Notes under the pieces: generated by a model
What the model was told of the DNA's origin: nothing
Database searches by the model: none
Seen by the model: only the letters and a program-made list of their open reading frames with translations
Shown: positions 3,265-28,809 of the stretch, in pieces
Layout of the letters: each line of letters opens with the position of its first letter
Numbering within the stretch: position 1 is the first letter of the stretch
Source: Maribacter algicola
GTDB taxonomy: Bacteria; Bacteroidota; Bacteroidia; Flavobacteriales; Flavobacteriaceae
Reading direction: 5' to 3'
NCBI RefSeq assembly: GCF_003933245.1
Contig: NZ_QUSX01000004.1
Coordinates: 62,001 to 126,000 of the forward strand
DNA length: 64,000 nt
Made by a program: the position numbers and the translations under genes

Positions 3265-3288
3265 ATTTCCATTAAATTGAATAAAATG

Positions 3289-3319
3289 AAAAGCCTCTAC
3301 TATTTTAGTAGAGGCTTTT
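3289..3319 (+). terminator. Rho-independent terminator of yidC
   Basis: A perfect 12-bp stem, AAAAGCCTCTAC with GTAGAGGCTTTT, around a 7-nt loop. It ends in a short T run and lies 24 bp downstream of the yidC stop. Confidence 0.9.
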
Positions 3320-3528
3320 GCCATTGATTAAGGTTTGGTTTGGTAAGATTTGGGGATGTAAATATGGCGTATTAGTTTTCTAAAAAAAAAAAAGGGTTGT
3401 CAAGTAGGGTTATTTGTATGCTAATGAATAATAAGCTGATGTTAAAAATGAACGGATTCTTTTATTTCGGTTCACATTGGATATTTATATCGGAATGCTA
3501 TCATATTTATAAACCCTATAAATTTAAA
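3320..3528. other. AT-rich spacer between yidC and the fasciclin gene
   Basis: Together with the flanking terminators this makes about 305 bp without a gene. It holds the convergent ends of two transcripts and a run of 12 A around 3384-3396. I see no reading frame, RNA gene or repeat in it. Confidence 0.6.
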
Positions 3529-3549
3529 AAAGCCGCATGAAGCGGCTTT
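3529..3549 (-). terminator. Rho-independent terminator of the fasciclin gene
   Basis: An 8-bp stem, AAAGCCGC with GCGGCTTT, around the loop ATGAA. Read on the minus strand it is followed by a T run and lies about 20 bp past the fasciclin stop. Confidence 0.85.
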
Positions 3550-3569
3550 ATAAACGTTGATAAATTGGT

Positions 3570-5438
3570 TTAATTACTGGTGTTTGGTATCATCACTTTA
3601 TTAATGGCATGAATGACACCATTGAAGGCTTGTACATCCACCGCAATGATTCCAATATCAGTATTGCCTGAACCATCGATTATTGTAACATTGTTTTCAG
3701 AATTAATACTAAAAGTTAGCGTGTCCCCCTCTAAAGTTGCAGGAGAAACCAATCCATCGCTCAAATCATTTGAAACAATATTTCCTCCTGAAATAACGTG
3801 ATGATTGAGAACAGCTGTTAAAACATCTCCACTTGGTACTTCTGATAGTGCGGCAAAAGCATCGTTCACTGGCGCGAAGACCGTGAAAGGAGCCGGTGCC
3901 TCACCAGAGGTACTTAATACAGATACAAAATCAGGTTGGCCTTCGCTGGTAAGTGCGCCTACCAACGAGCTAAAGTTGGGGTCGGCCGTTGCGAAAGTAA
4001 CTACGGTAGGTAAATCTATGACGGTATCCACGGCATGTATTATTCCGTTCGTCGCTACAATATCTGCTGCAGCAACTGTACTTGTACCATTTATCCGTAC
4101 ACCATCATCTACATTTATATACAGACTTAAGTTATCACCATCCGCATTGGTAGCTAAACTATTCACATACATATTGGTCAAGCTTCCGGAAGTTGCTGCT
4201 GTTCCTGAAATTACATGATTGGATAATATTGCATTTAAATCATTGCCATCTGGATTCATAAAGCTGCCAAATGCCGTATTTAAAGGTGCAAAAATAGTAT
4301 AATCTGTTTCAGAATCGGAAAGCAAGTCGGTAAAAGTTGTATTTTCATCTGTGGTAAGAGCTCCTACTAATGAAGATAGGTTTGGATTTGCTACTGCGTG
4401 GTCGACTATATTTGGTAGACCAATGACCGAATTTACAATATGCACTACACCATTAATCGCCTTGTTATCCGCAGAGGTTACCTCTGCAACCCCATTTATC
4501 TCAACACCACCTTCCGTATTTATGAAAAGGCTTAGGTTACTATCATTAGGCCCGGCTGTTGACAGTGAAGAAACATAACCTGTGGTAAGATCTGTAGATA
4601 AATTGGTGCCATTAACTACATGGTTTAATAACACTTGGGTAAGAACTTCAACAGGTACGTCGTCAAGACTGGCAAAATTGTTTGCGGTCAAGAAAGCTTC
4701 AAAAGCATCATTGGTAGGTGCAAAAACGGTAAAAGGACCTCCATCGGCCAATACAGCGGGTAAATCACCATTAGCGGTCAATAGCGCATCCACTAAAATG
4801 CTCAGGTTTGGTACCGAGATTGCTAAATCTGTAATGGAACTTAATAAAACGTCACTTAACGCGTCCAAAGCAGATTGGGGTATTAGAACCTTATCAATTA
4901 TATGCACGACACCATTTTCAGTTTGTATATCAGCAGTAGTAACTGATGCCATTTCACCAGCAGCGTCTGTAAAAGAAACACCTCCAACTAAACTTACGCT
5001 TAAGTTTTCACCTTGGACAGTAGTAATTGATTGACCTTCTTGAAGCTGATCGGAAGTAACTGCAACTCCTGAAACCACATGATACGTTAGTATAGTGGCC
5101 AATAAATCTTGTAATTGTTGGCTATTAAAATCATCAAGGGAATCAAATCCGTCCAATCGATTCAACAAGTCCGTAAAAGCTTCATTTGATGGTGCCAATA
5201 CCGTAAAATCAATGTCCTCGTTGCTCAAGGTGGTAATCAAATCATTATTGGAACTTTCGTCTGCTTTGGATAAGGCAGAAACCAATGAACTTAAGGAACT
5301 TGTTGCTTGTGCAGTTTCGACAATGTTGTCGTCTTCAATTATAATAGGACTTGGTTGATCGTCGTCACTACAAGAAAAGAAAAATGCCACCATCAAGAGC
5401 AAAATGGCAGGCTTCATAAATGTTTTAAAAGTTTTCAT
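3570..5438 (-). CDS. Four-domain fasciclin (FAS1) lipoprotein
   Basis: A secreted, lipid-anchored protein of 622 residues. The N-terminus is a lipoprotein signal with the lipobox FFFSC (Cys near residue 23) followed by the acidic stretch SDDD. Four FAS1 domains follow, at about residues 40-195, 196-345, 346-483 and 484-622; each shows the family pattern of an NLSxLVxAL opening, a central FTVFAPxNDAF (or TVLAPSNEAF, TIFAPLNTAF) and a closing NGVVHxxxxV. FAS1 domains are known in cell adhesion and matrix binding, so an adhesive or envelope role is likely, but no ligand can be read from the sequence. It is a single-gene unit with its own terminator, divergent from mnmA. Confidence 0.92.
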   Translation of the reverse strand: MKTFKTFMKPAILLLMVAFFFSCSDDDQPSPIIIEDDNIVETAQATSSLSSLVSALSKADESSNNDLITTLSNEDIDFTVLAPSNEAFTDLLNRLDGFDSLDDFNSQQLQDLLATILTYHVVSGVAVTSDQLQEGQSITTVQGENLSVSLVGGVSFTDAAGEMASVTTADIQTENGVVHIIDKVLIPQSALDALSDVLLSSITDLAISVPNLSILVDALLTANGDLPAVLADGGPFTVFAPTNDAFEAFLTANNFASLDDVPVEVLTQVLLNHVVNGTNLSTDLTTGYVSSLSTAGPNDSNLSLFINTEGGVEINGVAEVTSADNKAINGVVHIVNSVIGLPNIVDHAVANPNLSSLVGALTTDENTTFTDLLSDSETDYTIFAPLNTAFGSFMNPDGNDLNAILSNHVISGTAATSGSLTNMYVNSLATNADGDNLSLYINVDDGVRINGTSTVAAADIVATNGIIHAVDTVIDLPTVVTFATADPNFSSLVGALTSEGQPDFVSVLSTSGEAPAPFTVFAPVNDAFAALSEVPSGDVLTAVLNHHVISGGNIVSNDLSDGLVSPATLEGDTLTFSINSENNVTIIDGSGNTDIGIIAVDVQAFNGVIHAINKVMIPNTSN

Positions 5439-5748
5439 GTCAATTTTGTTTAATTATTTGACAAGAAAATTAAACAAAATATTATTGTTGAAATTAAAGA
5501 TTTGTTAATTTTGACTTGGTGATTAACTTGGTTTAGGTTGTTTTTTTGGTTTGAACGCACACAATTTGGGGTGTTTTTGGCTTCTTCTTTTCTGATTTAT
5601 CAATAAATTTTTTTATTAAACTTTAACATAAACCTTTGATTTAAAATCTTCTTATAGCATAGGTTTCAATATTTTTCAGCTTTCGGATAAACATTTTTAG
5701 ACATTTCAATATACTTCCCAGAATTATTATAATTGTAATCCGGTATTC
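5439..5748. other. Divergent intergenic region, fasciclin / mnmA
   Basis: About 345 bp of very AT-rich DNA separates the divergent fasciclin and mnmA starts. Besides the mnmA -7 box it holds a second plus-strand TAATTTTG at 5506-5513 with TTG 18 bp upstream, which is 270 bp before mnmA and could be chance or a small transcript. No convincing coding frame is present. Confidence 0.5.
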
Positions 5749-5756
5749 TAATTTTG
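5749..5756 (+). promoter_or_regulatory. Candidate promoter -7 box for mnmA
   Basis: TAATTTTG matches the Bacteroidota -7 consensus exactly, 27 bp before the ATG at 5784. This placement makes the in-frame TTG at 5754 upstream of the transcription start and supports the ATG. Confidence 0.55.
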
Positions 5757-5783
5757 TACTTTTGTTACGCCAAACAGGTCAGT

Positions 5784-6974
5784 ATGAAAAAAGTTGTAGT
5801 TGGACTTTCCGGGGGAGTAGATTCCAGCGTGGCAGCCTATCTTTTAAAGGAGCAAGGCTATGATGTCATTGGGCTTTTTATGAAAAATTGGCACGATGAT
5901 TCCGTAACCATCTCTGAGGAATGCCCGTGGTTAGAGGATAGCAATGATGCGCTCATTGTTGCTGAAAAACTGGGTATTCCTTTTCAAACTGTGGACCTGA
6001 GTGCACAGTACAAGGAAAGAATTGTGGACTATATGTTCCGTGAATATGAAATGGGACGCACGCCTAACCCTGATGTACTTTGCAATAGGGAAATCAAATT
6101 CGATGTTTTTCTCAAAATTGCCATGGAGTTAGGCGCGGATTATGTAGCTACGGGCCATTATTGCAGAAAAGGGACCCTTGTTAATCCCGATGGTACGGAA
6201 ACCTATCAGCTTTTGGCCGGCAAGGATAAAAACAAGGATCAGTCCTATTTTTTATGCCAACTTTCCCAAGAACAATTGTCAAGGACATTGTTTCCCATTG
6301 GTGAGTTAACCAAACCCGAAGTACGGCAAATTGCCGCAAAAATGGATTTGATTACGGCCGATAAAAAAGACTCGCAAGGTTTGTGTTTTATAGGAAAAGT
6401 TCGCCTTCCCGAATTTTTGCAGCAACAATTGAAACCCAAAAAAGGTAAAATTATAGAGGTTGCCTCAACAGAAAGTAAATATAATCAGGTTGTACCGCAC
6501 TTTGATGATAAGGTTTCCGAACTTGAGTTTTTTGCAAAAAAGCCCCAGTATACCCTTGCGGATGGTAACGTGGTAGGGGAGCACCAAGGGGCCCATTATT
6601 TTACCAAAGGTCAGCGTAAAGGACTACAAGTAGGGGGAACCAAAGAGCCGTTGTTCGTTATTGAAACCGATGTTGACGAGAATGTGATTTACACGGGACA
6701 AGGAAAATCGCACCCCGGACTTTACAGGAGAACTTTGTTCGTTCAGGAGTCGGAAATACATTGGGTCAGACCGGATTTACGCTTAAAAACCGAAGAAAAC
6801 TTATCCGTTAAGGCAAGGATCAGGTATCGCCAAGAACTTCAAAATGCCATTCTTTATAAAATTGAAAATGGATTGTACGTGGATTTTGAGGAAGAGCAAT
6901 CGGCCATAACGGAAGGACAATTTGTAGCTTGGTATCAGGATGACGAGCTTCTAGGTTCCGGGGTTATTTCATAA
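5784..6974 (+). CDS. mnmA: tRNA-specific 2-thiouridylase MnmA
   Basis: MnmA uses ATP and persulfide sulfur to thiolate U34 in the wobble position of tRNA Lys, Glu and Gln. I choose the ATG that gives [17 protein letters not shown], because the longer frame begins with a TTG inside the predicted promoter. The N-terminal PP-loop motif SGGVDSS is present, the catalytic Cys pair is seen in [12 protein letters not shown] and [10 protein letters not shown], and GHYCRK lies between. The C-terminal half is the tRNA-binding beta-barrel region ([11 protein letters not shown]). The length of 396 residues is usual. The next gene on the same strand begins 45 bp downstream and may be co-transcribed. Confidence 0.97.
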
Positions 6975-7019
6975 AGGTTATTGGGATTACCAAAGTCACA
7001 ACATCCAAAATTTGAATCA

Positions 7020-7964
7020 ATGCAGAATAGGATTACAGAATTATTCCGTGTGAAATACCCAATTATTCAGGCAGGAATGGTATGGGCCAGTGGCTGGAAA
7101 TTGGCATCGGCGGTTTCCAATGCCGGCGGATTGGGGCTAATTGGAGCAGGAAGTATGTATCCGGAAGTTTTAAGAGAGCATATTAGAAAATGTAAAAGGG
7201 TAACGAATAAGCCCTTTGGGGTCAATGTTCCTATGTTATATCCGGAGATTGACAAGATTTTCAAGATAATCGTAGAAGAAGGGGTTAAAATTGTTTTTAC
7301 TTCCGCCGGTAACCCAAAAACGTGGTCTTCCTACCTAAAGGATAATGGAATAACGGTGGTACATGTTGTAAGTAGTTTAAAATTTGCATTAAAGGCCCAA
7401 GAGGCCGGAGTCAATGCCATTGTTGCCGAAGGTTTTGAAGCGGGGGGTCACAACGGAAGGGATGAAACTACGACCTTCGTACTTATCCCCATGGTTAAGG
7501 AGAAAATCCATATACCGATTATTGCTGCTGGGGGAATTGCAACCGGAGCGGGGATGCTCGCTGCCATGGTTCTTGGTGCCGATGGCGTACAAATTGGAAG
7601 TAGGTTTGTAGCGAGTGAAGAAGCTTCCAGTCATTCAAGTTTTAAGGAAGAGGTTGTAAAGGCCAAGGAAGGGGACACCCAGTTGACCTTGAAGGAATTG
7701 ACTCCTGTGCGACTTTTAAAAAATAAATTTTACTTGGAAGTGCAAGCCGCCTACGATAGGGATGCCTCATTTGAAGAACTCAAAAGTCTTTTAGGCAGGG
7801 GCAGGGCCAAAAATGGAATGTTCGAAGGTGACTTGGAAGAAGGCGAACTAGAAATAGGTCAGGTTTCATCGATTATCCATGAAATAAAACCAGCTAAGCA
7901 AATTGTGGAGGAAATCATGTGTCAATACAGGGATTGTCTAACACTTTTTTGCACCGGGAAATAA
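7020..7964 (+). CDS. NAD(P)H-/FMN-dependent nitronate monooxygenase family protein
   Basis: A TIM-barrel FMN enzyme of the nitronate monooxygenase / 2-nitropropane dioxygenase-like family, which also includes FabK-type enoyl reductases. The ATG at 7020 gives MQNRITELFRVKYPIIQAGM, the normal family N-terminus; an upstream in-frame TTG at 6981 would add 13 unlikely residues. Seen motifs are GGLGLIGAG, the substrate-side segment EGFEAGGHNGRDETTTF with the conserved His, and the phosphate-binding PIIAAGGIATG followed by GADGVQIGSRF. The last dozen residues (CQYRDCLTLFCTGK) are Cys-rich and may be a strain-specific tail. The physiological substrate cannot be told from sequence; a detoxification or redox role is usual. 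Confidence 0.88.
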   Translation: MQNRITELFRVKYPIIQAGMVWASGWKLASAVSNAGGLGLIGAGSMYPEVLREHIRKCKRVTNKPFGVNVPMLYPEIDKIFKIIVEEGVKIVFTSAGNPKTWSSYLKDNGITVVHVVSSLKFALKAQEAGVNAIVAEGFEAGGHNGRDETTTFVLIPMVKEKIHIPIIAAGGIATGAGMLAAMVLGADGVQIGSRFVASEEASSHSSFKEEVVKAKEGDTQLTLKELTPVRLLKNKFYLEVQAAYDRDASFEELKSLLGRGRAKNGMFEGDLEEGELEIGQVSSIIHEIKPAKQIVEEIMCQYRDCLTLFCTGK

Positions 7965-19978: not shown

Positions 19979-21310
19979 TTATAATATTCCCCGCGCCTTG
20001 ATTTCTAGATATTTGTTAATGGCCTTTATGGTCAGTTCTTCGGGTTTGGTCAAAATGGTCTGTATACCATACTTTTCCAGTTCCTTTTGCATCAATTTTT
20101 TATCCAGGGAGAACTTTTCGGCAATGGTTTTATGGTAAATCGCCTGCATATCCTCGGCATCGGTATGGATGAGTTTTTCCAATTCGGAGTTTTCAAAGAA
20201 GATGACCACTAGCACATGTTTTTTGGCCATGGCCAAAAGGTAGGGTAGTTGTCTCTTTAGGGCTGAAATATGTTCGAAATTGGTATATAGCAACAGAAGG
20301 CTTCGGTGGGTTATTTTTCGTTTTACGTGTCCGTAAAGCAATCCAAAATCGGAATCCGTAAAAGCGGTGCCAATGTTGTACAGTTTTTCCAGTATGGTGT
20401 TGAGGTGGGTAATCTTTTGAACAGCCGTTACATAGGTTTCAATATTTTTTGAAAACGCGATTAACCCGGTTTTATCATTCCGTTTGAGGGTCACGTTGGA
20501 AAAGGCCAAGCAGCTATTAATGGCATAATCCAACAGTTTCAATTCGTTAAATGGCATTTTCATCACCCTTCCCGTATCAATGATGGAATAGATAGGTTGC
20601 GATTTTTCGTCCTGGTACTGGTTTACCATCAATTGATGCTGTTTCGCCGTTGCTTTCCAATTTAAGGTTCGTATGTCGTCACCTTGTACGTATTCCTTGA
20701 TTTGTTCAAACTCCTGGGTATGGCCAATTCTCCGAATTTTTTTGAGGCCAATGGTTGTTAGCCTTTTGCTGATGGCCAAAAAATCATATTGCTGCATCTG
20801 TATGATGGAGGGATACACGGGAACCATCTGATCTTTTTGAAAACTGTATTTTCTTTTGATGATACGCAGCGGCGATGATGCAAATACAATCAGGTTTCCA
20901 AATACATATTCTCCACGGTCTACAGGGCGAACCTCATAATCGAACTGTTTTTTTTCACCCTTGATGAGCGACGTTTTAAAGTCGAAATCCCGCTTTTGAA
21001 ACTGAATGGGCAATTCGTCAATAATGGAAATATAGGTCCGGAATCCATACTTGGTTTCAAACGTGATTTTTATTGGATTTATGTCGCTATTGGAGAGCTT
21101 TTTGGGAAGCTTTCTTTCGGCAATTATATTTTGGCCTGATGCATAGAGCAGAAAAATATCAAAAAGAAACAGACCGATAAGCAGTAGCGTCAAAAGCCAT
21201 GCGATGGGGTAGAGTGGTTTGACCCAATAGGAAAGGACAAAACAACCCGAAAGGACCGCTATGTACCTAAAAAAGATATTATTAATGTAAAACGACCTTA
21301 TAAAGTTCAT
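19979..21310 (-). CDS. DUF58 domain membrane protein
   Basis: A 443-residue protein with two N-terminal membrane helices (about residues 12-55: YIAVLSGCFVLSYWVKPL, IAWLLTLLLIGLFLFDIFLLY). The DUF58 core follows; its best marker is the motif FEQIKEYVQGDDIRTLNWKA near residue 205. The remainder resembles a von Willebrand A-like fold (YSIIDTGRVM, LDYAINSCLAFSNVTLKRND). DUF58 proteins are near-constant partners of MoxR ATPases and are thought to be their targets. It is the last gene of a six-gene operon; its start codon directly follows the MoxR stop with no gap. Envelope-associated action is inferred. Confidence 0.93.
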   Translation of the reverse strand: MNFIRSFYINNIFFRYIAVLSGCFVLSYWVKPLYPIAWLLTLLLIGLFLFDIFLLYASGQNIIAERKLPKKLSNSDINPIKITFETKYGFRTYISIIDELPIQFQKRDFDFKTSLIKGEKKQFDYEVRPVDRGEYVFGNLIVFASSPLRIIKRKYSFQKDQMVPVYPSIIQMQQYDFLAISKRLTTIGLKKIRRIGHTQEFEQIKEYVQGDDIRTLNWKATAKQHQLMVNQYQDEKSQPIYSIIDTGRVMKMPFNELKLLDYAINSCLAFSNVTLKRNDKTGLIAFSKNIETYVTAVQKITHLNTILEKLYNIGTAFTDSDFGLLYGHVKRKITHRSLLLLYTNFEHISALKRQLPYLLAMAKKHVLVVIFFENSELEKLIHTDAEDMQAIYHKTIAEKFSLDKKLMQKELEKYGIQTILTKPEELTIKAINKYLEIKARGIL

Positions 21311-22309
21311 TTATCTTGGTATTTCTACACTTTCCATGATCATTTGTACGACATTCTCAGTGGACATGCCTTCCATTTCCCGTTCCGGGGTTAGGATGAC
21401 TCTATGGTTCAAAACTGGAACCATGGCTTTCTTTACATCCTCTGGGGTCACAAAATCCCTACCGTTGATCGCCGCGAATGCCTTTGCACTATTCAGGGCC
21501 GCAATGGATGCTCTAGGCGAACCGCCCAAATACAGATGTGGATGGTTTCTTGTTTTGGCCACGACTTCGGCAATATATTTGAAAATCTTTTCCTCCACCA
21601 CTACTTCATGAATCTGTCCCTTGAAAATCGCCAATTGTTTTGGGTCGAGAATATCCTTAATCAAAGTTTGTGGTTGCGACCCTTTACGTTCGTGATGGGT
21701 TTTTAGGATCAAAACTTCCTCATCCGTCTGCGGGTATGATATTTTTATTTTAAAAAGGAAACGGTCCAATTGTGCTTCGGGTAGGGCATAGGTGCCTTCC
21801 TGTTCAATGGGATTTTGGGTGGCTAACACCATGAAGGGTGCGGTCATGGGATACGTAGTGCCGTCCATGGTCACCTGCCGCTCCTCCATAGTCTCGAACA
21901 TGGCCGCTTGGGTCTTTGCAGGCGCCCTGTTTATTTCGTCGATCAAGATGATATTCGAAAATATCGGACCTTTTTTAAATTCAAAGTCGGTAGTTTTTGC
22001 ATTGAATACGGATGTCCCCAAGATATCACTGGGCATGAGGTCTGGGGTGAATTGGATCCGACTGAAATCGGTTTTCAAAGTCTTGGCAAAGAGCTTTGCC
22101 GTGATAGTCTTAGCCACGCCTGGAACCCCCTCGATAAGCACATGCCCATCTACGAGGAGCGACACTATTAAAAGCTCAATAAAATTTTCTTGACCTACGA
22201 TTACTTTGGAGAGTTCCTGTTTGATGTCGGCTACAGCCTTTTGCAGCTCGGCCAAGGGAATCCGACTGTCAAAACCAAGTTCGTTCTTTTGTTCCTCGTT
22301 ATTTTCCAT
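21311..22309 (-). CDS. MoxR family AAA+ ATPase
   Basis: A 332-residue cytoplasmic AAA+ ATPase that works as a chaperone for assembling or activating membrane or VWA-domain partners. Walker A is the MoxR variant GVPGVAKT, Walker B is IILIDEINRAPAKTQAA, sensor 1 lies in FMVLATQNPIEQEGTYALPE with the adjoining DRF, and the sensor 2 region is GGSPRASIAAL. It overlaps the upstream DUF4350 gene by 11 bp and abuts the downstream DUF58 gene, indicating translational coupling. Its target in this operon is probably the DUF58 protein or the SpoIIM/DUF4129 membrane assembly (inference). Confidence 0.96.
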   Translation of the reverse strand: MENNEEQKNELGFDSRIPLAELQKAVADIKQELSKVIVGQENFIELLIVSLLVDGHVLIEGVPGVAKTITAKLFAKTLKTDFSRIQFTPDLMPSDILGTSVFNAKTTDFEFKKGPIFSNIILIDEINRAPAKTQAAMFETMEERQVTMDGTTYPMTAPFMVLATQNPIEQEGTYALPEAQLDRFLFKIKISYPQTDEEVLILKTHHERKGSQPQTLIKDILDPKQLAIFKGQIHEVVVEEKIFKYIAEVVAKTRNHPHLYLGGSPRASIAALNSAKAFAAINGRDFVTPEDVKKAMVPVLNHRVILTPEREMEGMSTENVVQMIMESVEIPR

Positions 22310-23519
22310 CGTTATTGGATTTAAATTTCTGAATCAGATTATTTAGTTGTTTGAGTTGATGTTCTGATACTTGGTCGCTCGACCTAAGCTCGTCCATCAG
22401 CTTAAAAAGTGATTTGGTTTCCTCAAGGGAGTTTCCACTTCGGGCCGATACATTCTTGTAAAATTCCTCCTCTTTGGTAACGTTTCCAAGATAGTACCGA
22501 CTCCTGATATCATGGAGGAAATAATTGATTTTATGCTCCGCTATGGATTTTCTATCCCCTTTTTCAAAATACATGTCCGAAATGGTTCGGGTAAAGGCGA
22601 GCGTCTGGTTTTGAAGCGGTTTCACAACGGGTATGGGGCGTTGCTTTCTTTTCCCCTCAAAAATTATGTAAACTAGCCCTCCAATAAGTACGAGATAATA
22701 GGCCCATTTCAATTCTTTGGTGTTGAGAAATATATACATGGGCGAGGTGTAGAAGGACTTTCCACTTTTGTAGTAGTTGTCCATATAAATATGCTCCGCT
22801 TGCCCAAAATAGGAAACTAAACCGGCCGTGTACTCCCTGTTGTCTTCCTCCAAAATAAAGTAATTGGTAAAGGCCTTGGGAAAGGTGGATAGTATGATTT
22901 CCCCCTTACCAAACGGACTTTTTATGGCCGTTACATCCTTGGATTTTTTATCATTTCCTTCCTCGAGTAGTTCCACGGTGGCCAATGCGACCGACTTAAT
23001 TGTATCAAGTGCTTCAAAGACGGTCACAAAGCTTTCCTTTTTATAAGGATATGATTTACCACTTTTCAATTTGGGATTTACCAATCGATGTTCCTGATTC
23101 TGGGTTACCTCAAAACCTGCATATCGGGTTCCGAGTTCAAATCCTAAGGTATCCCTGAGGGTTTCCTCAAAACCTTCGGAAGCAATGAAAAGGGTATTGC
23201 CTTCGGCTGTCCATTCCAACAACCGGTTCAGCTCGGCTTCCTCAAAAAATACGCCATTGTTCACAAATGCATAGATGCCTTTTTTGGATTGGATATCAGC
23301 CAAGAACTCAAAAGGGGGGATATGGACCTGTTGTACTTTTTCTTTAAAAAGTAGGTTTTCCAGCAAATCATTTATAACAAAAGTACCGTACGGAATTTTG
23401 TGGGTACTCACATAAGACTCGAACCAATTAATAGACTTTGGTTTGTTGTATTGTAAAAGCAACAACCCGGCAATCAGGATTATAGCGGTTACTATGTAGG
23501 AAATCCCTTTTTTACGCAT
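22299..23519 (-). CDS. DUF4350 domain membrane protein
   Basis: A 406-residue protein with an N-terminal membrane anchor (ISYIVTAIILIAGLLLLQ). The DUF4350 domain (about 35-215) resembles a GATase-like sandwich: PYGTFVINDLLENLL, GIYAFVNNGVFF, NTLFIASEG and GKGEIILSTFPKAFTNY. A second membrane helix (WAYYLVLIGGLVYIIFEG, about 270-288) leads to a cytoplasmic C-terminal region (ISDMYFEKGDRKSIAEHKIN). The start overlaps the upstream DUF4129 gene by 8 bp. The domain is regularly found next to MoxR/DUF58/DUF4129 genes, but no biochemical role is established. Confidence 0.88.
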   Translation of the reverse strand: MRKKGISYIVTAIILIAGLLLLQYNKPKSINWFESYVSTHKIPYGTFVINDLLENLLFKEKVQQVHIPPFEFLADIQSKKGIYAFVNNGVFFEEAELNRLLEWTAEGNTLFIASEGFEETLRDTLGFELGTRYAGFEVTQNQEHRLVNPKLKSGKSYPYKKESFVTVFEALDTIKSVALATVELLEEGNDKKSKDVTAIKSPFGKGEIILSTFPKAFTNYFILEEDNREYTAGLVSYFGQAEHIYMDNYYKSGKSFYTSPMYIFLNTKELKWAYYLVLIGGLVYIIFEGKRKQRPIPVVKPLQNQTLAFTRTISDMYFEKGDRKSIAEHKINYFLHDIRSRYYLGNVTKEEEFYKNVSARSGNSLEETKSLFKLMDELRSSDQVSEHQLKQLNNLIQKFKSNNDGK

Positions 23520-24249
23520 TGGTCACTTTCTGTTTTAAAGCAATAAAGAAGTTGGACACATTTTGGTATTTGGGTTCGTCCAGCGGAAAATCCCCGTACC
23601 AGATGTAGTTGTAATAAAGGGTCGAGGTTTTAAAGGCATCCTTTAGCCCTGTTTCCTTAATTTCGGATAGGTAGTCCTCGTTCGTTTTCTGCAATTCCCA
23701 TTGAATGATTTCCTTATCGGTCATCAAACGTAATATCAATAAATAATAATAGCGGATGGCAAGTCTATAATTCTTATCGGCTAATGCTTTTTCTATCAAA
23801 GACTCTATATTTTCGTTCTTGATGATTTGCTCCTCTTCGGACAGATGCACCAAAGACTTATTGTTTTTAGTATGCATCAAGGAACGGGCATGCACGTTCA
23901 GGAAAAACTTTATCAGGATAAAAATCAGGATTCCCAAAAGGAGATACGGGAGAATTTGAAGAAAGGCATTGAATGCGCCTGAGGCCTTTTCAATGCCGAA
24001 AATCCACTCGAACAACCTCATGAATATCCTACCTAACCAATTCTTAAAAGAAATCCACCAATCCGGAGCGGTTTTTTCCACGACTTCATAGTCGAACTTT
24101 GGGTCATTCCTAAAAGTATCCAGATCGGCATCTTCTATGACTACCGGATTTATTTCTGATGTATCATATTTAACGACCAAAGAATCCTGCTGGGCCAATA
24201 GAAAATCGGTCAGAAATAAAAATAGTACCAATAGGACCCGTTTTGGCAT
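23512..24249 (-). CDS. DUF4129 domain membrane protein
   Basis: A 245-residue protein with signal peptide MPKRVLLVLFLFLTDFLLAQ, a periplasmic part of about 60 residues, an amphipathic Trp-rich stretch (DWWISFKNWLGRIFMRLFEW), one membrane helix (LPYLLLGILIFILIKFFLNV) and a cytoplasmic C-terminal DUF4129 domain (NYRLAIRYYYLLILRLMTDK, TNEDYLSEI, YYNYIWYGDFP). DUF4129 is typically C-terminal in transglutaminase-like or MoxR-operon proteins. Here the transglutaminase domain is absent. It lies third in the operon, 1 bp from the upstream membrane gene and overlapping the downstream DUF4350 gene. Confidence 0.88.
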   Translation of the reverse strand: MPKRVLLVLFLFLTDFLLAQQDSLVVKYDTSEINPVVIEDADLDTFRNDPKFDYEVVEKTAPDWWISFKNWLGRIFMRLFEWIFGIEKASGAFNAFLQILPYLLLGILIFILIKFFLNVHARSLMHTKNNKSLVHLSEEEQIIKNENIESLIEKALADKNYRLAIRYYYLLILRLMTDKEIIQWELQKTNEDYLSEIKETGLKDAFKTSTLYYNYIWYGDFPLDEPKYQNVSNFFIALKQKVTNA

Positions 24250-24250
24250 A

Positions 24251-25132
24251 TTATTCTTCGGCTGTTTTTCCTAAATTTTCTATTTGTTCAAAGGTTCCGG
24301 TGAAATTCTTTTTTTCGTTGAGGTTGAAGTAAATAAGGGCCAAAGAAATGATGCTGATTAGGTTCAACAAAAATTGGGCTACGGTACCAATAATATTGAA
24401 TAGTATGTACAAGGGGTCCGTTGTCATTTCAAAAACATTTTCGGCATCCACTTCTCCAGAAAGAATGCCCATTTTTGCCCATTGGTACACTACGGCGGGT
24501 AATGAAAAGGCCAAGGCCGCTATATAAAGTATAATCCCGATGACGAAGATTGTGGCAAAGGATATCCACCATTCGTCCTTTACCAACTTAAAACTGTAGC
24601 TATACGAGTCCGATGCACCCATTTTATCAAAGACCATAATACTGAATGACAGTGCCAAAGGAACGTAAAGATAAATCCCTGGTATAATACAAAGCATAAT
24701 CCCTACTATTATGGAAAGGCCAACCATGATGCCCAATCCTATAAAACTCCAAAAGCTTCCGTAAACCTCTTTTCGTATGGTATTGAAATCCGTGGTGCCC
24801 TGACCATTGGAATAGGATTTTATGTAGTGCAGTACCGTAGATTGTGACATGGTGTACAGCACAATAATCGATAGGACATATACAAGCCCAACCACGAAAA
24901 TGGTGGCAATGCTTGCCGCGCCGCTTTCATTTTGAAGCATAAAAGTGAAACCATTCCCAATAAAATATAGGTAGGCTACTAGGGCAACGATCATCGCAGC
25001 AAGGAAGGGGCCTACAATTTTGAAAAAAGTACTGAAAAAGGGTTTGAACTCGGCCCTTAGAAAAGCAAAGGTGTCCGAGATAATTTCCCCAAGATCCCGC
25101 TGCTTTTTGAACTCAATGTAATTTGGTTTCAT
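24251..25132 (-). CDS. Polytopic membrane protein of the SpoIIM-MoxR operon
   Basis: A 293-residue membrane protein with about six hydrophobic segments (around residues 33-58, 75-97, 128-160, 190-215, 240-275). The short N-terminal cytoplasmic segment IEFKKQRDLGEIISDTFAFL matches the start of the DUF975/glycerophosphodiesterase membrane-domain-like proteins of Bacteroidota. Gly-rich helix GLGIMVGLSIIVGIMLCIIP and the acidic tail (GTFEQIENLGKTAEE) are the only other marks. It overlaps the SpoIIM gene by 20 bp, so translation is probably coupled. No function can be assigned beyond membership in this operon. Confidence 0.75.
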   Translation of the reverse strand: MKPNYIEFKKQRDLGEIISDTFAFLRAEFKPFFSTFFKIVGPFLAAMIVALVAYLYFIGNGFTFMLQNESGAASIATIFVVGLVYVLSIIVLYTMSQSTVLHYIKSYSNGQGTTDFNTIRKEVYGSFWSFIGLGIMVGLSIIVGIMLCIIPGIYLYVPLALSFSIMVFDKMGASDSYSYSFKLVKDEWWISFATIFVIGIILYIAALAFSLPAVVYQWAKMGILSGEVDAENVFEMTTDPLYILFNIIGTVAQFLLNLISIISLALIYFNLNEKKNFTGTFEQIENLGKTAEE

Positions 25133-26090
25133 TTAATCTTAATCTTTTATGGATTTGGTATGGATATATAACGTAGTAAAAAAGAATTAGTGCAAGCGAC
25201 CCTAAAATTATCAAAATAGCAAGCCAGTCCGGCATTTCAGTGTGCCTGGTCACAAAACCTTCCAGGAATCCGGCAACCACAAAAAAGGGTATGGTACTTA
25301 CCATGATCTTTAGTCCGTTCTTAACACCTCTTTTAAAGGATTCCAATCGAGTGTAGGTACCCGGAAACAACATGCCGTTGGCCAGGACGAGACCGGCGCA
25401 ACCAGCGATTATTATGACCGATATCTCAATGGTGCCGTGGATCCAAATGGTACGCACTGACTCCCACAGCAATCCTTTTTCGTAGAAAAAATATTGAAAG
25501 CTGCCGAGCATGATTCCATTCTGCAACATTACCATGAGGGTTCCCACGCCGAGCATGATGCCGTACACAAAGGCCATCAAGGCCACCCTTATGTTGTTGA
25601 TGGTGATTCCCAGGAACATATTGAACTCCCCCATTTGCTTGTAAACCGCCATGGGGTCGCCCTTTTCGATGTTTTCAAGGGTCATGTTCACATAGGCATC
25701 TCCCAATATGGATCGGACAAAATCCCCTTCATTGGCGGCCGAATAGGCACCTACGAACGAAAAAAAAACAAATACCAGAAAAGCGATCAAAAGTTCTCGA
25801 TGATGCTTTTTGAACATCAAGGGAAATTCAGTTTTCCAAAAGGTGATGATACGGCTTTTGGACTCCCTTTTTGTCTTGTATATTTTTTGATGTGCCTGTG
25901 AGGCGAGGGAATTGAGATAAAACTCGGTATTGCTATTTGGATAGAAGGTTTTGGCGTAGCTCAGATGGTCCGTAACCTCTATGTATAAATCAGACAATAC
26001 ATTTGGGTCCAGATTCGTTTTGTTAGCCAATGCGCTTTCAAAAGTTGACCATTTGTCCTTATTTTGCTTTACAAAGGCGGCTTCGCGCAT
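25113..26090 (-). CDS. SpoIIM (stage II sporulation protein M) family membrane protein
   Basis: First gene of a six-gene operon. The 325-residue protein has an N-terminal cytoplasmic helical region (MREAAFVKQNKDKWSTFESA, with DLYIEVTDHLSYAKTFYP), then about five membrane helices. The SpoIIM signature lies in the middle: NMFLGITINNIRVALMAFVYG, then GTLMVMLQNGIMLGSF and a conserved IWIHGTIEISVIIIAGCAGL with the polar HGTxE motif. In Firmicutes SpoIIM works with SpoIID/SpoIIP in septal peptidoglycan degradation; a flavobacterium does not sporulate, and here the protein is associated with RDD and MoxR genes. The start is 33 bp from the divergent RDD gene. Confidence 0.9.
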   Translation of the reverse strand: MREAAFVKQNKDKWSTFESALANKTNLDPNVLSDLYIEVTDHLSYAKTFYPNSNTEFYLNSLASQAHQKIYKTKRESKSRIITFWKTEFPLMFKKHHRELLIAFLVFVFFSFVGAYSAANEGDFVRSILGDAYVNMTLENIEKGDPMAVYKQMGEFNMFLGITINNIRVALMAFVYGIMLGVGTLMVMLQNGIMLGSFQYFFYEKGLLWESVRTIWIHGTIEISVIIIAGCAGLVLANGMLFPGTYTRLESFKRGVKNGLKIMVSTIPFFVVAGFLEGFVTRHTEMPDWLAILIILGSLALILFYYVIYPYQIHKRLRLNETKLH

Positions 26091-26123
26091 TAACTACTCG
26101 GTTTATACCAAAGAAACAAAAGA

Positions 26124-26840
26124 ATGGAACAATTTCAAATAGAAACTGCTCAAAATATAAGCATTGCCCAAAATACCGCGCATCTTGGGGACCGCATTTT
26201 GGCCTATATTATTGACACCCTGATTATCGTTATTTACTACGTTCTTATGTTTTGGTTGCTACTGGCATTGGATGTGGAACCGGGCGATTCCTGGGCCATT
26301 TACTTGCTCATGAGCCTTCCCGCCTTCCTATATTATTTTTTGATGGAGACTTTTATGGATGGGAAGACCATTGGTAAGCATTTTATGGGTATACGGGTGG
26401 TCAAACTGGATGGAACCAAACCCGGGTTTTCCAGTTATTTTATTAGATGGATTCTACGGATGTTGGACATTACCTTGACCTCTGGAGGTATTGCCGTTTT
26501 TACGATTTTAATTCGCGGTAAGGGACAACGAGTGGGGGACATTGCAGCGGGAACTACCGTAATTAGCGAAAAGCGAAAGGTGTTCTTGAAGGATACGCTT
26601 TTACGGGACTTACCTTCTGGTTACACCCCAAAATTTCCTCAGGTTACGGTCTTTAAGGACAGCGAGATGCAGACCATCAAAAACTTGTACGATAACGCCC
26701 GAAGAAATGGAAACCACAAGGTAATTTTATCCCTGAACAACCGCATAAAAAAGGTAACAGAGATTTCCAGTGATTTACAGCCCATGGAATTTGTGGATAT
26801 CGTTATCAAGGATTACAGTTATTATACGCAGCAACTTTAG
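26124..26840 (+). CDS. RDD family membrane protein
   Basis: A 238-residue protein with the RDD core in residues 18-150: LGDRILAYIIDTLIIVIYYV carries the Arg-Asp pair on helix 1, two further membrane helices follow (SWAIYLLMSLPAFLYYFLME; DITLTSGGIAVFTILI), and the conserved DGKTIGKHFMGIRVVKLDG and KGQRVGDIAAGTTVI close the domain. A soluble C-terminal tail of about 80 residues follows (EMQTIKNLYDNARRNGNHKV). Some RDD proteins take part in ion transport, others are accessory. It is divergent from SpoIIM (33 bp) and 3 bp before the TRIC-type gene, so it links the two groups. Confidence 0.92.
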   Translation: MEQFQIETAQNISIAQNTAHLGDRILAYIIDTLIIVIYYVLMFWLLLALDVEPGDSWAIYLLMSLPAFLYYFLMETFMDGKTIGKHFMGIRVVKLDGTKPGFSSYFIRWILRMLDITLTSGGIAVFTILIRGKGQRVGDIAAGTTVISEKRKVFLKDTLLRDLPSGYTPKFPQVTVFKDSEMQTIKNLYDNARRNGNHKVILSLNNRIKKVTEISSDLQPMEFVDIVIKDYSYYTQQL

Positions 26841-26843
26841 TAT

Positions 26844-27449
26844 ATGCTCTACTCCCTTATCGACATTCTAGGAACCATTGCCTTTGCCATTTCGGGAGTA
26901 CTGGTGGCCATGGATAAACGCTTGGATGTCTTTGGTGTCTTTATCATCGCCTTTGTGACCGCTGTTGGTGGCGGTACCTTGAGGGATGTGCTGATAGGTA
27001 ACACACCGGTTGGCTGGATGACCCAGCCCAACTATACCATCATCATCATCATAACGGTTATTTTTTCGATTCTTTTTGCCGGAAGGCTGAAGCACTTTAG
27101 AAAATCCCTATTCCTTTTTGATACAATTGGTATAGGCCTTTATACAATGGTTGGGATACAAAAGGGCTTGGACGCCGGTTTATTGCCTATTATGTGCATC
27201 GCTTTGGGTACCATGACCGCCTGTTTTGGAGGGGTTATTAGGGATATCTTGTGCAATGAAATTCCGGTTATTTTTAGAAAGGAAATTTATGCGACCGTTT
27301 GTATTCTTGGTGGTGGTATCTATTTTTTAATGCTCCAGTTTCCCGTGAATCCAGATATTCCCTACATCACGGGAATTATCTGCATCATAGTTTTACGCCT
27401 TTTGGCAGTGAAATTTAAGATAGCCTTGCCCAGTATTTACAATAAGTGA
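26844..27449 (+). CDS. Trimeric intracellular cation (TRIC) channel family protein
   Basis: A 201-residue inner-membrane protein of the UPF0126/YicG family. Seven membrane helices are arranged as two repeats; the first is marked by LIDILGTIAFAISGVLVAMD with GGGTLRDVLIG, the second by LFLFDTIGIGLYTMVGIQKG with GGVIRDILCNEIP. Structures of bacterial homologues show homotrimeric cation channels. The start ATG lies 3 bp after the RDD stop, so the two are co-transcribed. The transported ion in bacteria is probably potassium or a monovalent cation. Confidence 0.92.
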   Translation: MLYSLIDILGTIAFAISGVLVAMDKRLDVFGVFIIAFVTAVGGGTLRDVLIGNTPVGWMTQPNYTIIIIITVIFSILFAGRLKHFRKSLFLFDTIGIGLYTMVGIQKGLDAGLLPIMCIALGTMTACFGGVIRDILCNEIPVIFRKEIYATVCILGGGIYFLMLQFPVNPDIPYITGIICIIVLRLLAVKFKIALPSIYNK

Positions 27450-27452
27450 GAC

Positions 27453-28169
27453 TTATTCGATGACCTCCGCTTTGGTGATATAAATATTCTGTTGTGGCCA
27501 ATCACCCTTACCAACGGGTTGGGCATTGATTTTATCCACTACCTCCATCCCTTCGATTACTTTGCCAAAAGGTGTAAAATCTCCATCCAGATGGTAAGAC
27601 CCAGGATCTGTTACTACAATAAAAAACTCATATGGGGAAGCGAGTTTGTGGGGATTGTCCGTTTCGCTGCTGGGCATGGAGACGGTGCCCCTGTGATGGC
27701 TGTATCCTTTTTTTGTATCCGGTGGAAGTAGGTACCTACCAATGTCCCATCGTTTATCGGCCGTTCGTTTATCATCGGAACTACCTCCCTGTATAATGAA
27801 ATCCTTAACTACTCTGTGGAATTGGGTATAGTCAAAATATCCTTTTCTGGTCAGATAAATAAAATTGGCCTTGTGGTAAGGAACATCGTCATAGAGTTGA
27901 ATGACAAAACTTCCAAATTTCGTCGTCATTTTTACCTTATTAGCTTTAAGGTCTTTTTGATAGTCGAAGAAAAAATCGATGGCGTTCTCTTCCGTGAGTT
28001 CAAAGGTATCTTCTTCCACCTCCTTGGTTTCTTGGGTTGCCATAGCAGAAGAATCCACTTCTTTTATTTCGATTCTAAAAGGGGTTTCAGATTTTTGAGG
28101 CTTATCTTTACAACTGATGAATTGAACCGTAAGGAATATGAAAAAATAGTAGAAAGTCTTTATACGCAT
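27453..28169 (-). CDS. Peptidyl-prolyl isomerase (cyclophilin) lipoprotein
   Basis: Cyclophilins catalyse proline cis-trans isomerisation; this one is exported. The ATG giving MRIKTFYYFFIFLTVQFISC is chosen, a lipoprotein signal with lipobox QFISC; a TTG three codons earlier is less likely. After an acidic linker (about 25-75), the cyclophilin domain shows FGSFVIQLYDDVPYHKANF, QFHRVVKDFIIQGGS with the catalytic Arg and Gln, and GTVSMPSS. It sits end to end with the TRIC gene, 3 bp apart and convergent. Its ATG overlaps that of the divergent Nudix gene by two bases, so each promoter must lie within the other gene. Confidence 0.93.
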   Translation of the reverse strand: MRIKTFYYFFIFLTVQFISCKDKPQKSETPFRIEIKEVDSSAMATQETKEVEEDTFELTEENAIDFFFDYQKDLKANKVKMTTKFGSFVIQLYDDVPYHKANFIYLTRKGYFDYTQFHRVVKDFIIQGGSSDDKRTADKRWDIGRYLLPPDTKKGYSHHRGTVSMPSSETDNPHKLASPYEFFIVVTDPGSYHLDGDFTPFGKVIEGMEVVDKINAQPVGKGDWPQQNIYITKAEVIE

Positions 28170-28809
28170 GGATTTCAACTTTTTTGAGCAACGGATTTCA
28201 AAAATAAAGGATTTACCACTTCCAGGCGAAATTTCGCATTATAAAATGGCCCCAGAGTTTAGGATAAGGGAGTTGATGGAAGGTAGGATGGTTAGGGATA
28301 ATCCTCGCAAGGCCGCGGTGATGGCCCTTTTTTATCCAGGAAATGAAAATAGGACCCAACTTTTGTGTATTTTACGGAAAACATATGAAGGGGTACATTC
28401 CAATCAGGTCGCATTCCCAGGGGGTAAGGCGGAAAAGGAAGATGGAAACTTAAGGATTACCGCCCTTAGGGAAACCTATGAGGAGGTTGGGGTGAACCCC
28501 AAGGATGTGGAAATCGTAAGGACTATTTCAGAAGTGTATATTCCTCCAAGTAATTTTGAGGTCCAACCTTTTATCGGTCTGTATAAAAAACCAAAACCGT
28601 TCAAGATTCAGGAATCCGAAGTAGCCTCACTTTTGGAAATTTCCCTGACGGATTTTTTAGAGGATATCAACCTAACCACAAAAAAAATGAGTACCTCGTA
28701 CGCCAATGAAATTGAAGTACCGGCCTTTAAATTAAACGATTATATTATATGGGGTGCCACTGCAATGATGTTGAGCGAGATTAAAGATCTTTTGAAGCAG
28801 GTGTTATAA
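28168..28809 (+). CDS. CoA pyrophosphatase-type Nudix hydrolase
   Basis: A 213-residue hydrolase of the NudL/UPF0035 group, which cleaves CoA and its thioesters to 3',5'-ADP and phosphopantetheine. The CoA-specific motif is in NQVAFPGGKAEKEDGN and the Nudix box continues as RITALRETYEEVGV. The start MDFNFFEQRISKIK matches the usual N-terminus of flavobacterial homologues, and the next ATG (MAPEFRIREL) is already inside the conserved part. The gene is followed at 24 bp by a PlsC-type acyltransferase, a possible metabolic link through acyl-CoA. Its start codon overlaps that of the divergent cyclophilin. Confidence 0.93.
   Translation: MDFNFFEQRISKIKDLPLPGEISHYKMAPEFRIRELMEGRMVRDNPRKAAVMALFYPGNENRTQLLCILRKTYEGVHSNQVAFPGGKAEKEDGNLRITALRETYEEVGVNPKDVEIVRTISEVYIPPSNFEVQPFIGLYKKPKPFKIQESEVASLLEISLTDFLEDINLTTKKMSTSYANEIEVPAFKLNDYIIWGATAMMLSEIKDLLKQVL
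28199..28206 (-). promoter_or_regulatory. Candidate promoter -7 box for cyclophilin, inside the Nudix gene
   Basis: Read on the minus strand it is TATTTTTG, an exact TAnnTTTG match, with TTCG 20 bp upstream in place of TTTG. It lies 30 bp before the cyclophilin ATG and inside codons 11-13 of the divergent Nudix gene. Confidence 0.5.

Follow-up and report, generated by a model that had tools for sequence, protein, structure and literature searches.

Six genes packed on the minus strand of a Maribacter algicola sequence, together with an RDD gene that diverges from them, form a conserved module that recurs in Bacteroidota and in other phyla, and the DUF58 protein of this module carries a D-x-G-R/Q signature at the metal site of its vWA-like domain. 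The stretch of DNA analysed (the window) spans 64,000 nucleotides (assembly GCF_003933245.1, contig NZ_QUSX01000004.1, positions 62,001 to 126,000), and the six genes encode a SpoIIM-family protein, a membrane protein of 293 amino acids (aa), a DUF4129 protein, a DUF4350 protein, a MoxR ATPase and a DUF58 protein. From the sequence comparisons below we consider it rather likely that the seven genes specify one inner-membrane assembly, in which a MoxR ring would act through a membrane-anchored and probably metal-free DUF58 on a core of SpoIIM, RDD and the 293-aa protein. The genes, with the TRIC-type gene that follows RDD, are:

19979..21310, minus strand: DUF58 protein, 443 aa (PF01882, 2e-16, above cut-off)
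21311..22309, minus strand: MoxR AAA+ ATPase, 332 aa (PF07726, AAA_3, 3.3e-64, above cut-off)
22299..23519, minus strand: DUF4350 protein (PF14258, 5e-20, above cut-off)
23512..24249, minus strand: DUF4129 protein (PF13559, 21.5 bits, under the cut-off of 24.8)
24251..25132, minus strand: 293-aa polytopic membrane protein with six hydrophobic segments, distantly YciC/UPF0259/GPDPase_memb-like
25113..26090, minus strand: SpoIIM-family membrane protein, 325 aa (PF01944, 5e-39, 134.4 bits against a cut-off of 26.9)
26124..26840, plus strand: RDD membrane protein (PF06271, 2e-22, 80.3 bits against a cut-off of 24.1)
26844..27449, plus strand: TRIC-type (Gly_transporter) membrane protein (PF03458, 5e-49, 164.5 bits against a cut-off of 23.5)

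A first-pass annotation, made from the letters of the window, had described this dense packing, and the coordinates of the open reading frames (ORFs) bear it out: from SpoIIM to DUF58 the successive junctions are a 20-bp overlap, a 1-bp gap, overlaps of 8 and 11 bp, and an exact abutment (0 bp), while RDD and TRIC leave on the plus strand across a 33-bp gap. The overlaps suggest that the six minus-strand genes are translationally coupled. As the divergent starts of SpoIIM and RDD are only 33 bp apart (26091-26123), their promoters probably overlap coding sequence. The -7 promoter motif of Bacteroidota has the consensus TAnnTTTG; the one similar match near the divergent gap, at 25998, is not informative, and no Rfam family matches at gathering score anywhere in the window.

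Most of the encoded proteins have hydrophobic segments, as judged by a crude hydropathy scan (which assigns one segment to the soluble MoxR as well, and no more than two to RDD). SpoIIM has about five; the DUF4129 protein has one at its N-terminus and one at about residues 99-117, with its DUF4129 domain at the C-terminus; the DUF4350 protein has two (about 5-23 and 269-287) that enclose its domain and are followed by a C-terminal tail; and DUF58 combines two N-terminal segments with a vWA-like domain. Aligned with its relatives, MoxR displays the AAA_3 core, including Walker A (GVPGVAKT), Walker B (ILIDE) and DEINRAP motifs. SpoIIM has a single match within the window's genome and is annotated under this name in Maribacter and Zobellia species; its invariant columns among 36 aligned sequences include N166, N191, H218, E222 and E277, polar residues that hint at a functional membrane site. 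Matches of the 293-aa protein to the Pfam families GPDPase_memb and UPF0259 are sub-threshold, as is that to the NCBIfam model YciC (3.9e-7, below cut-off). Homology between the tails of the DUF4129 and DUF4350 proteins was considered and rejected at this sensitivity (profile comparison probability 0.5%). Sequence searches for relatives of solved structure returned one match for DUF58 (E 0.065), two for SpoIIM (E 0.6-0.7) and none for DUF4350, and these were not used.

Gene order was examined in 148 Bacteroidota genomes drawn evenly, the window's own (G000) included. The SpoIIM model matches in 53 of them, above cut-off in 51; without the window's own, these above-cut-off matches define 50 loci (one, in genome G058, being a 46-bit fragment), in which module genes were identified by comparing the ORFs with profiles seeded by the window's proteins. 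DUF4129 and DUF4350 are each present in 48 loci, MoxR in 46, the 293-aa protein in 44, RDD in 43, DUF58 in 40 and TRIC in 6. In 48 of the 50 loci SpoIIM is accompanied by three or more of its five partners in the operon (the exceptions are L060 and L080), and 36 loci contain the complete operon and RDD. Where RDD was found (43 loci), it diverges in 41. Neighbours overlap or lie at most 10 bp apart for SpoIIM-293aa in 38 of 44 loci, 293aa-DUF4129 in 39 of 44, DUF4129-DUF4350 in 47 of 48, DUF4350-MoxR in 32 of 46 and MoxR-DUF58 in 21 of 40. Such an order, recurring in Bacteroidota and in other phyla, is more than chance, and the six operon genes and RDD are a conserved module to which TRIC is a neighbour. 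The first-pass annotation had proposed to check Bacteroidota neighbourhoods for co-occurrence of all eight families; seven do co-occur, and TRIC joins them in 6 of the 50 loci.

Co-inheritance was followed across whole genomes for SpoIIM, for module-type DUF58 and, by its Pfam model, for DUF4350. A profile built from 36 module DUF58s finds a near full-length match of at least 379 bits in 50 of the 148 Bacteroidota genomes, the next best match listed scoring 144 bits. The same 50 genomes carry a full SpoIIM and 97 have neither, leaving G058, with its SpoIIM fragment only, as the one mismatch (Fisher p 6e-39, a value that ignores shared ancestry); genomes with and without the set are found together in 10 of the 33 families. 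In nine of the 50 (G107, G023, G126, G034, G131, G013, G017, G096 and G123) DUF58 lies on a different contig from SpoIIM, which in these draft assemblies means that the two are not adjacent and gives no distance between them. No other module gene was found near seven of the nine separated DUF58s. The separated DUF58 of G123 is paired with a MoxR; that of G023 has nearby only a weak, more distant MoxR-like ORF, with the MoxR nearest to the window's (57% identical) about 124 kb away on the same contig and the SpoIIM group on another. G017 keeps the set in three places: SpoIIM, DUF4129-DUF4350-MoxR, and DUF58. Because nine genomes keep both genes on separate contigs, the set is retained beyond operon linkage.

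A second sample comprised 150 genomes of Pseudomonadota, the phylum of a module-bearing Pseudomonas that is itself counted as one positive. SpoIIM matches in 25 of these (19 above cut-off), and a strong module-type DUF58 occurs in 20 (at least 244 bits, the next 102); 19 genomes have both, 130 neither, and one DUF58 only. In this last genome (G232) no SpoIIM could be detected; it has a DUF4129 match, and its MoxR occupies two frames. In all 19 positives SpoIIM and DUF58 share a contig and lie within about 5.4 kb of each other, which supports their pairing but not its independence from linkage.

Beyond these samples, related neighbourhoods are widely scattered. Near MoxR, among the best 80 of the 587 contigs in a MoxR scan of genome contigs, SpoIIM is present in 33 and at least one of SpoIIM, 293-aa, DUF4129 and DUF4350 in 41; those bearing SpoIIM include Pseudomonas, Eikenella, Myxococcales, Akkermansia, Fibrobacteres and Gemmatimonadetes. 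The Catenovulum locus combines RDD, SpoIIM, a DUF4129-type protein, DUF4350, MoxR and DUF58. Nocardia and Nonomuraea have all seven families by our own profiles, the DUF4350 of Nocardia showing up only weakly and in part, within the DUF4129 frame; the Nocardia DUF4129 relative also exceeds the Pfam cut-off (PF13559, 44.7 bits). Plasmid records of Rhizobium and Paracoccus list DUF805, two hypothetical genes, MoxR, DUF58, SpoIIM and RDD, and in a Pfam scan of the Rhizobium hypotheticals the two match DUF4129 (below cut-off) and DUF4350 (above). A small DUF805-like membrane protein was seen near the module in four loci (L081, at 3530-4629, L096, L099 and L100) from one alphaproteobacterium, one betaproteobacterium and two flavobacteria, and it may stand in for the 293-aa protein or supplement it.

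Some module members are also joined in single open frames: RDD with SpoIIM in three loci (L105, L156 and L166), and SpoIIM with the 293-aa protein cleanly in L086 and with overlapping matches in L057. On a plasmid of the haloarchaeon Natribaculum (L167:7861-9387) SpoIIM is joined to a weak 293-aa/DUF7847-like part; the 18 kb examined at this locus yielded neither MoxR nor DUF58. The first-pass annotation had taken SpoIIM as an integral component of one functional unit, a proposal that the gene order, the co-inheritance of non-adjacent parts and the fusions all support.

The vWA-like domain of DUF58 sets the module apart at the level of residues. In the window DUF58, IDTGRVM replaces DxSxS and TNF stands at the second metal site, and the protein does not show the canonical sequence of a metal-ion-dependent adhesion site (MIDAS). 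A motif survey compared 82 DUF58s that sit with module genes with 33 that do not. Whereas the canonical DxSxS is present in 32 of the 33 non-module proteins (the exception being L088), it occurs in one of the 82 module proteins, in which the fourth position is Arg in 80 and His or Lys in two, and the third is Gly in 70 and Ser in 12. At the position of the second metal Asp, 80% of module sequences have Asn and 88% of the non-module sequences, L088 left out, have Asp. At other places the window's genome contains two further MoxR-DUF58 pairs in which DUF58 has DxSxS, and of its four other DUF58s three have this motif and the fourth did not align. D-x-G-R is also present in all nine separated Bacteroidota DUF58s. 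A check in other groups covered 17 genomes and 30 of 65 places: among 11 module DUF58s (eight near SpoIIM and three from module loci) nine have D-x-G-R and two D-x-S-R, while 22 non-module rows have no D-x-G-R and 15 cases of DxSxS (two as DxSRS). Module-type DUF58s of Pseudomonadota have D-x-G-R (16 of 20) or D-x-G-Q (4 of 20), neither of which is found at the 10 other DUF58 loci of that sample. D-x-G-R/Q is thus a signature of this module's DUF58.

Phylogenetic trees agree with this division. In the DUF58 tree 83 module members (including L088) stand apart from 32 others with a support of 0.998, and the best split in the MoxR tree groups 93 module members with three others (support 0.992). 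Since the module DUF58s form one clade, the signature reflects one old change kept across phyla rather than many independent ones. The L088 locus (Pseudomonas sp. Gutcm_11s) keeps MoxR and DUF58, and its MoxR shares 85% identity with the MoxR of a Pseudomonas module (L094); a 1374-aa ORF with an N-terminal helix-turn-helix (3148-7272) occupies the place that RDD, SpoIIM, DUF4129 and DUF4350 have in a related Pseudomonas. As a broken-up Pseudomonas module, L088 was left out of the second-Asp count and put in the module class for the tree.

On this basis a mechanism can be outlined. The fusions and the conservation point to a membrane core of SpoIIM, RDD and the 293-aa protein, and hydropathy suggests that the DUF4350 and DUF4129 proteins are one- or two-pass connecting subunits with tails toward the cytosolic side. 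The MoxR AAA+ ring would act on the assembly through DUF58, itself presumably anchored by its two N-terminal hydrophobic segments; this is the motor and adaptor pairing that had been suggested for the two proteins, and it gains support here. The adaptor would be an unusual one: the vWA-type partner expected for MoxR is present as the vWA-like domain of DUF58, but its metal motif is degenerate, the putative site nearly always keeping the first metal Asp, lacking at least one of the two MIDAS serines and in most cases the second Asp as well, and placing in the loop an Arg, or sometimes a Gln, His or Lys. Membrane anchoring together with a degenerate metal site suggests a metal-independent, possibly permanent grip: DUF58 probably needs no Mg2+ to hold its partner, and it may be a lasting part of the assembly, not a metal-switched shuttle. 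The core would be assembled, opened or remodelled at the expense of ATP. For the cellular role, the SpoIIM of B. subtilis and the proposals of Makarova et al. 2015 faintly suggest envelope maintenance (peptidoglycan or membrane remodelling). Nothing in the comparisons, none of which was aimed at this question, points to the ion or osmotic stress that the first-pass annotation had also named. A bolder reading, possible but tentatively held, is that the seven proteins constitute an AAA+-driven inner-membrane machine shared across phyla, whose vWA adaptor would have given up its metal in exchange for a fixed residue, basic or polar, and would couple MoxR permanently to the core; the SpoIIM of spore-formers would be a specialised offshoot of a general envelope system gated by MoxR.

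Several observations weigh against a single assembly of this kind. The 293-aa protein was not found by own-profile search in 6 of the 50 Bacteroidota loci, and in Rhizobium and Paracoccus a DUF805 gene stands in the operon. The Pfam DUF4350 family is not exclusive to the module, since it matches in 73 of the 148 Bacteroidota genomes; of the 47 above cut-off, 42 are among the 50 with the set and five are without a full SpoIIM. For the separated genes, the junctions in G107 (by eye, a hisA-like gene after MoxR and a hisH-like gene before DUF58) could be a misassembly, and all such separations come from drafts. The motif, too, is less than uniform: the third-position Ser is retained in those 12 of 82 module DUF58s, and the fourth residue is Gln in four of the 20 from Pseudomonadota. 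Seven of the 22 non-module DUF58s from other groups diverge from DxSxS in other ways, and none of the 9 readable (of 10) other Pseudomonadota DUF58s keeps it; as other DUF58s have lost DxSxS as well, degeneracy of the metal motif alone is not special. The link to the envelope comes from the SpoIIM family name only.

The relation of MoxR and DUF58 to the rest could also be a transient one, the pair serving only as an assembly chaperone that loads or activates a SpoIIM-RDD-293aa channel or transporter and then leaves, like RavA-ViaA and CoxD-CoxE. These two pairs and the MoxR-vWA ternary conflict systems resemble the module in combining an AAA+ MoxR with a vWA co-chaperone. Such a helper would follow the general model of capture, assembly and release by MoxR-vWA pairs, in which, according to the available text of PMC7159879, the vWA site captures a client peptide and passes on an ATP-driven change, and a separable helper could account for the position of MoxR and DUF58 apart from the other genes in G023 and G123. 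However, the two hydrophobic segments and degenerate metal motif of DUF58 fit a fixed subunit better than a cycling adaptor, and DUF58 is retained in 50 of 50 sampled genomes with a full SpoIIM; we therefore regard this explanation as unlikely. Some vWAs of conflict systems are also described there as lacking the metal aspartates; the D-x-G-R form is not mentioned in the available text of that paper, and SpoIIM and RDD have no occurrence in its main text.

A secretion or membrane-remodelling system, with DUF4350 as an extracytoplasmic binding part and SpoIIM, RDD and the 293-aa protein as a conduit, is suggested by published neighbourhoods. Makarova et al. 2015 (PMC5898192) report that SpoIIM has a vWA protein and an AAA ATPase of COG0714 as neighbours in several bacteria, and that in archaea DUF4350 is found next to MoxR and vWA. 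They propose that the arCOG01314 (DUF4350) loci serve secretion and that relatives of SpoIIM remodel membranes, and they note a similarity of DUF4350 to GldG. The DUF4350 of Catenovulum has a weak match to ABC_transp_aux (18.2 bits against a cut-off of 34.7). The archaeal DUF4350 loci of that paper carry S-layer and Ig proteins, whereas the ten window proteins that were scanned for families include no S-layer, Ig-like or secreted vWA partner, and by eye no obvious cargo is present in the 25 largest clusters of neighbouring genes from 90 loci; we regard this explanation as unlikely as well. Least credible of all is conservation of the operon without joint function, as separate membrane housekeeping genes held together by linkage and passed on or lost in one piece: since most loci are linked, as in all 19 Pseudomonadota positives, linkage does explain part of the co-occurrence, but not the nine Bacteroidota genomes with DUF58 on another contig, the set in three places in G017, the 10 families that vary in presence with no mismatch other than the G058 fragment, or the gene fusions.

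Returning to the single assembly, parts of its neighbourhood have thus been published, in PMC5898192 (DUF4350 with MoxR and vWA; SpoIIM with vWA and a COG0714 ATPase). These are separate observations in sections 3.2 and 3.3 of that paper, in which RDD, DUF4129 and a protein of the 293-aa type go unmentioned. A second precedent is the mycobacterial cluster Rv3689, Rv3691-Rv3695 (PMC8191103, Table 4), which comprises a membrane protein, DUF4350, MoxR, DUF58, SpoIIM and RDD, the same families in another phylum; its gene numbering suggests another arrangement, and no function is given in that table. The M. chelonae fold changes in the same source were not used as evidence of co-expression because the large values could reflect a deletion. 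In the open-licence literature searched we found no paper that treats the whole set as one system and, in the portions available, no mention of the altered DUF58 metal site. The suggestion that the system is undescribed is therefore partly true: the whole set is apparently new within MoxR-vWA systems, and parts of it are not.

Among better-known systems, the Bat/MRP operons for aerotolerance (MoxR-DUF58-VWA-TPR) are alike in having MoxR beside DUF58 in Bacteroidota, and a stress link has been reported for R. anatipestifer (PMC11834572). The ten window proteins scanned include the MoxR and DUF58 of the Bat/MRP set but no second VWA and no TPR protein; compared with the Bat DUF58, that of the module is longer, has two N-terminal hydrophobic segments, belongs to a separate clade and is without DxSxS. 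The SpoIIM of the B. subtilis DMP complex, an engulfment protein that acts together with SpoIID and SpoIIP, belongs to the same Pfam family (PF01944) as that of the window; neither SpoIID nor SpoIIP is among the ten window proteins scanned, the genome not having been searched for either. To our knowledge, some groups that carry the module are not known to form spores. A 2025 review (PMC12067865) describes the DUF58 protein next to MoxR1 as one of unknown role. Three further reports, in the parts available, could not be tied to the module: a MoxR-DUF58 pair in an M. smegmatis SigF table (PMC4694148), which was not used, a DUF4350 protein in a B. fragilis resistance survey (PMC12707147), and the DUF4350 protein GSU0208 of Geobacter under cobalt (PMC7726332).

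SpoIIM, RDD, DUF4129, DUF4350 and DUF58 are widespread annotations that have no settled role outside sporulation. Their co-inheritance even when non-adjacent turns these orphan annotations into one testable machine, and the altered vWA site provides both a residue-level prediction (a metal-independent grip) and a signature that separates the module DUF58 from the Bat type.

The surroundings of the module are more variable. TRIC, which the first-pass annotation had counted as a member, was rejected as a core component: its six loci (of 50) all belong to the window's own family, in which it lies beside the module in seven of nine module-bearing genomes, the window counted. In the window's genome, one of the four MoxRs above the AAA_3 cut-off (G000:C5:29225-29614) has no DUF58 match on its contig. 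When the other genes near SpoIIM are clustered, most of the 25 largest groups are limited to one lineage. TRIC, a cyclophilin-type peptidyl-prolyl isomerase and a gene that by eye is Nudix-like recur beside the module in several Flavobacteriaceae (window 26844-28809), and in one Bacteroidota family (f21; L039, L045, L047 and 12 other loci) the module lies beside heme A synthesis-like genes, with a glycosyltransferase-like gene, as judged by eye from sequence starts, also adjoining it in most loci.

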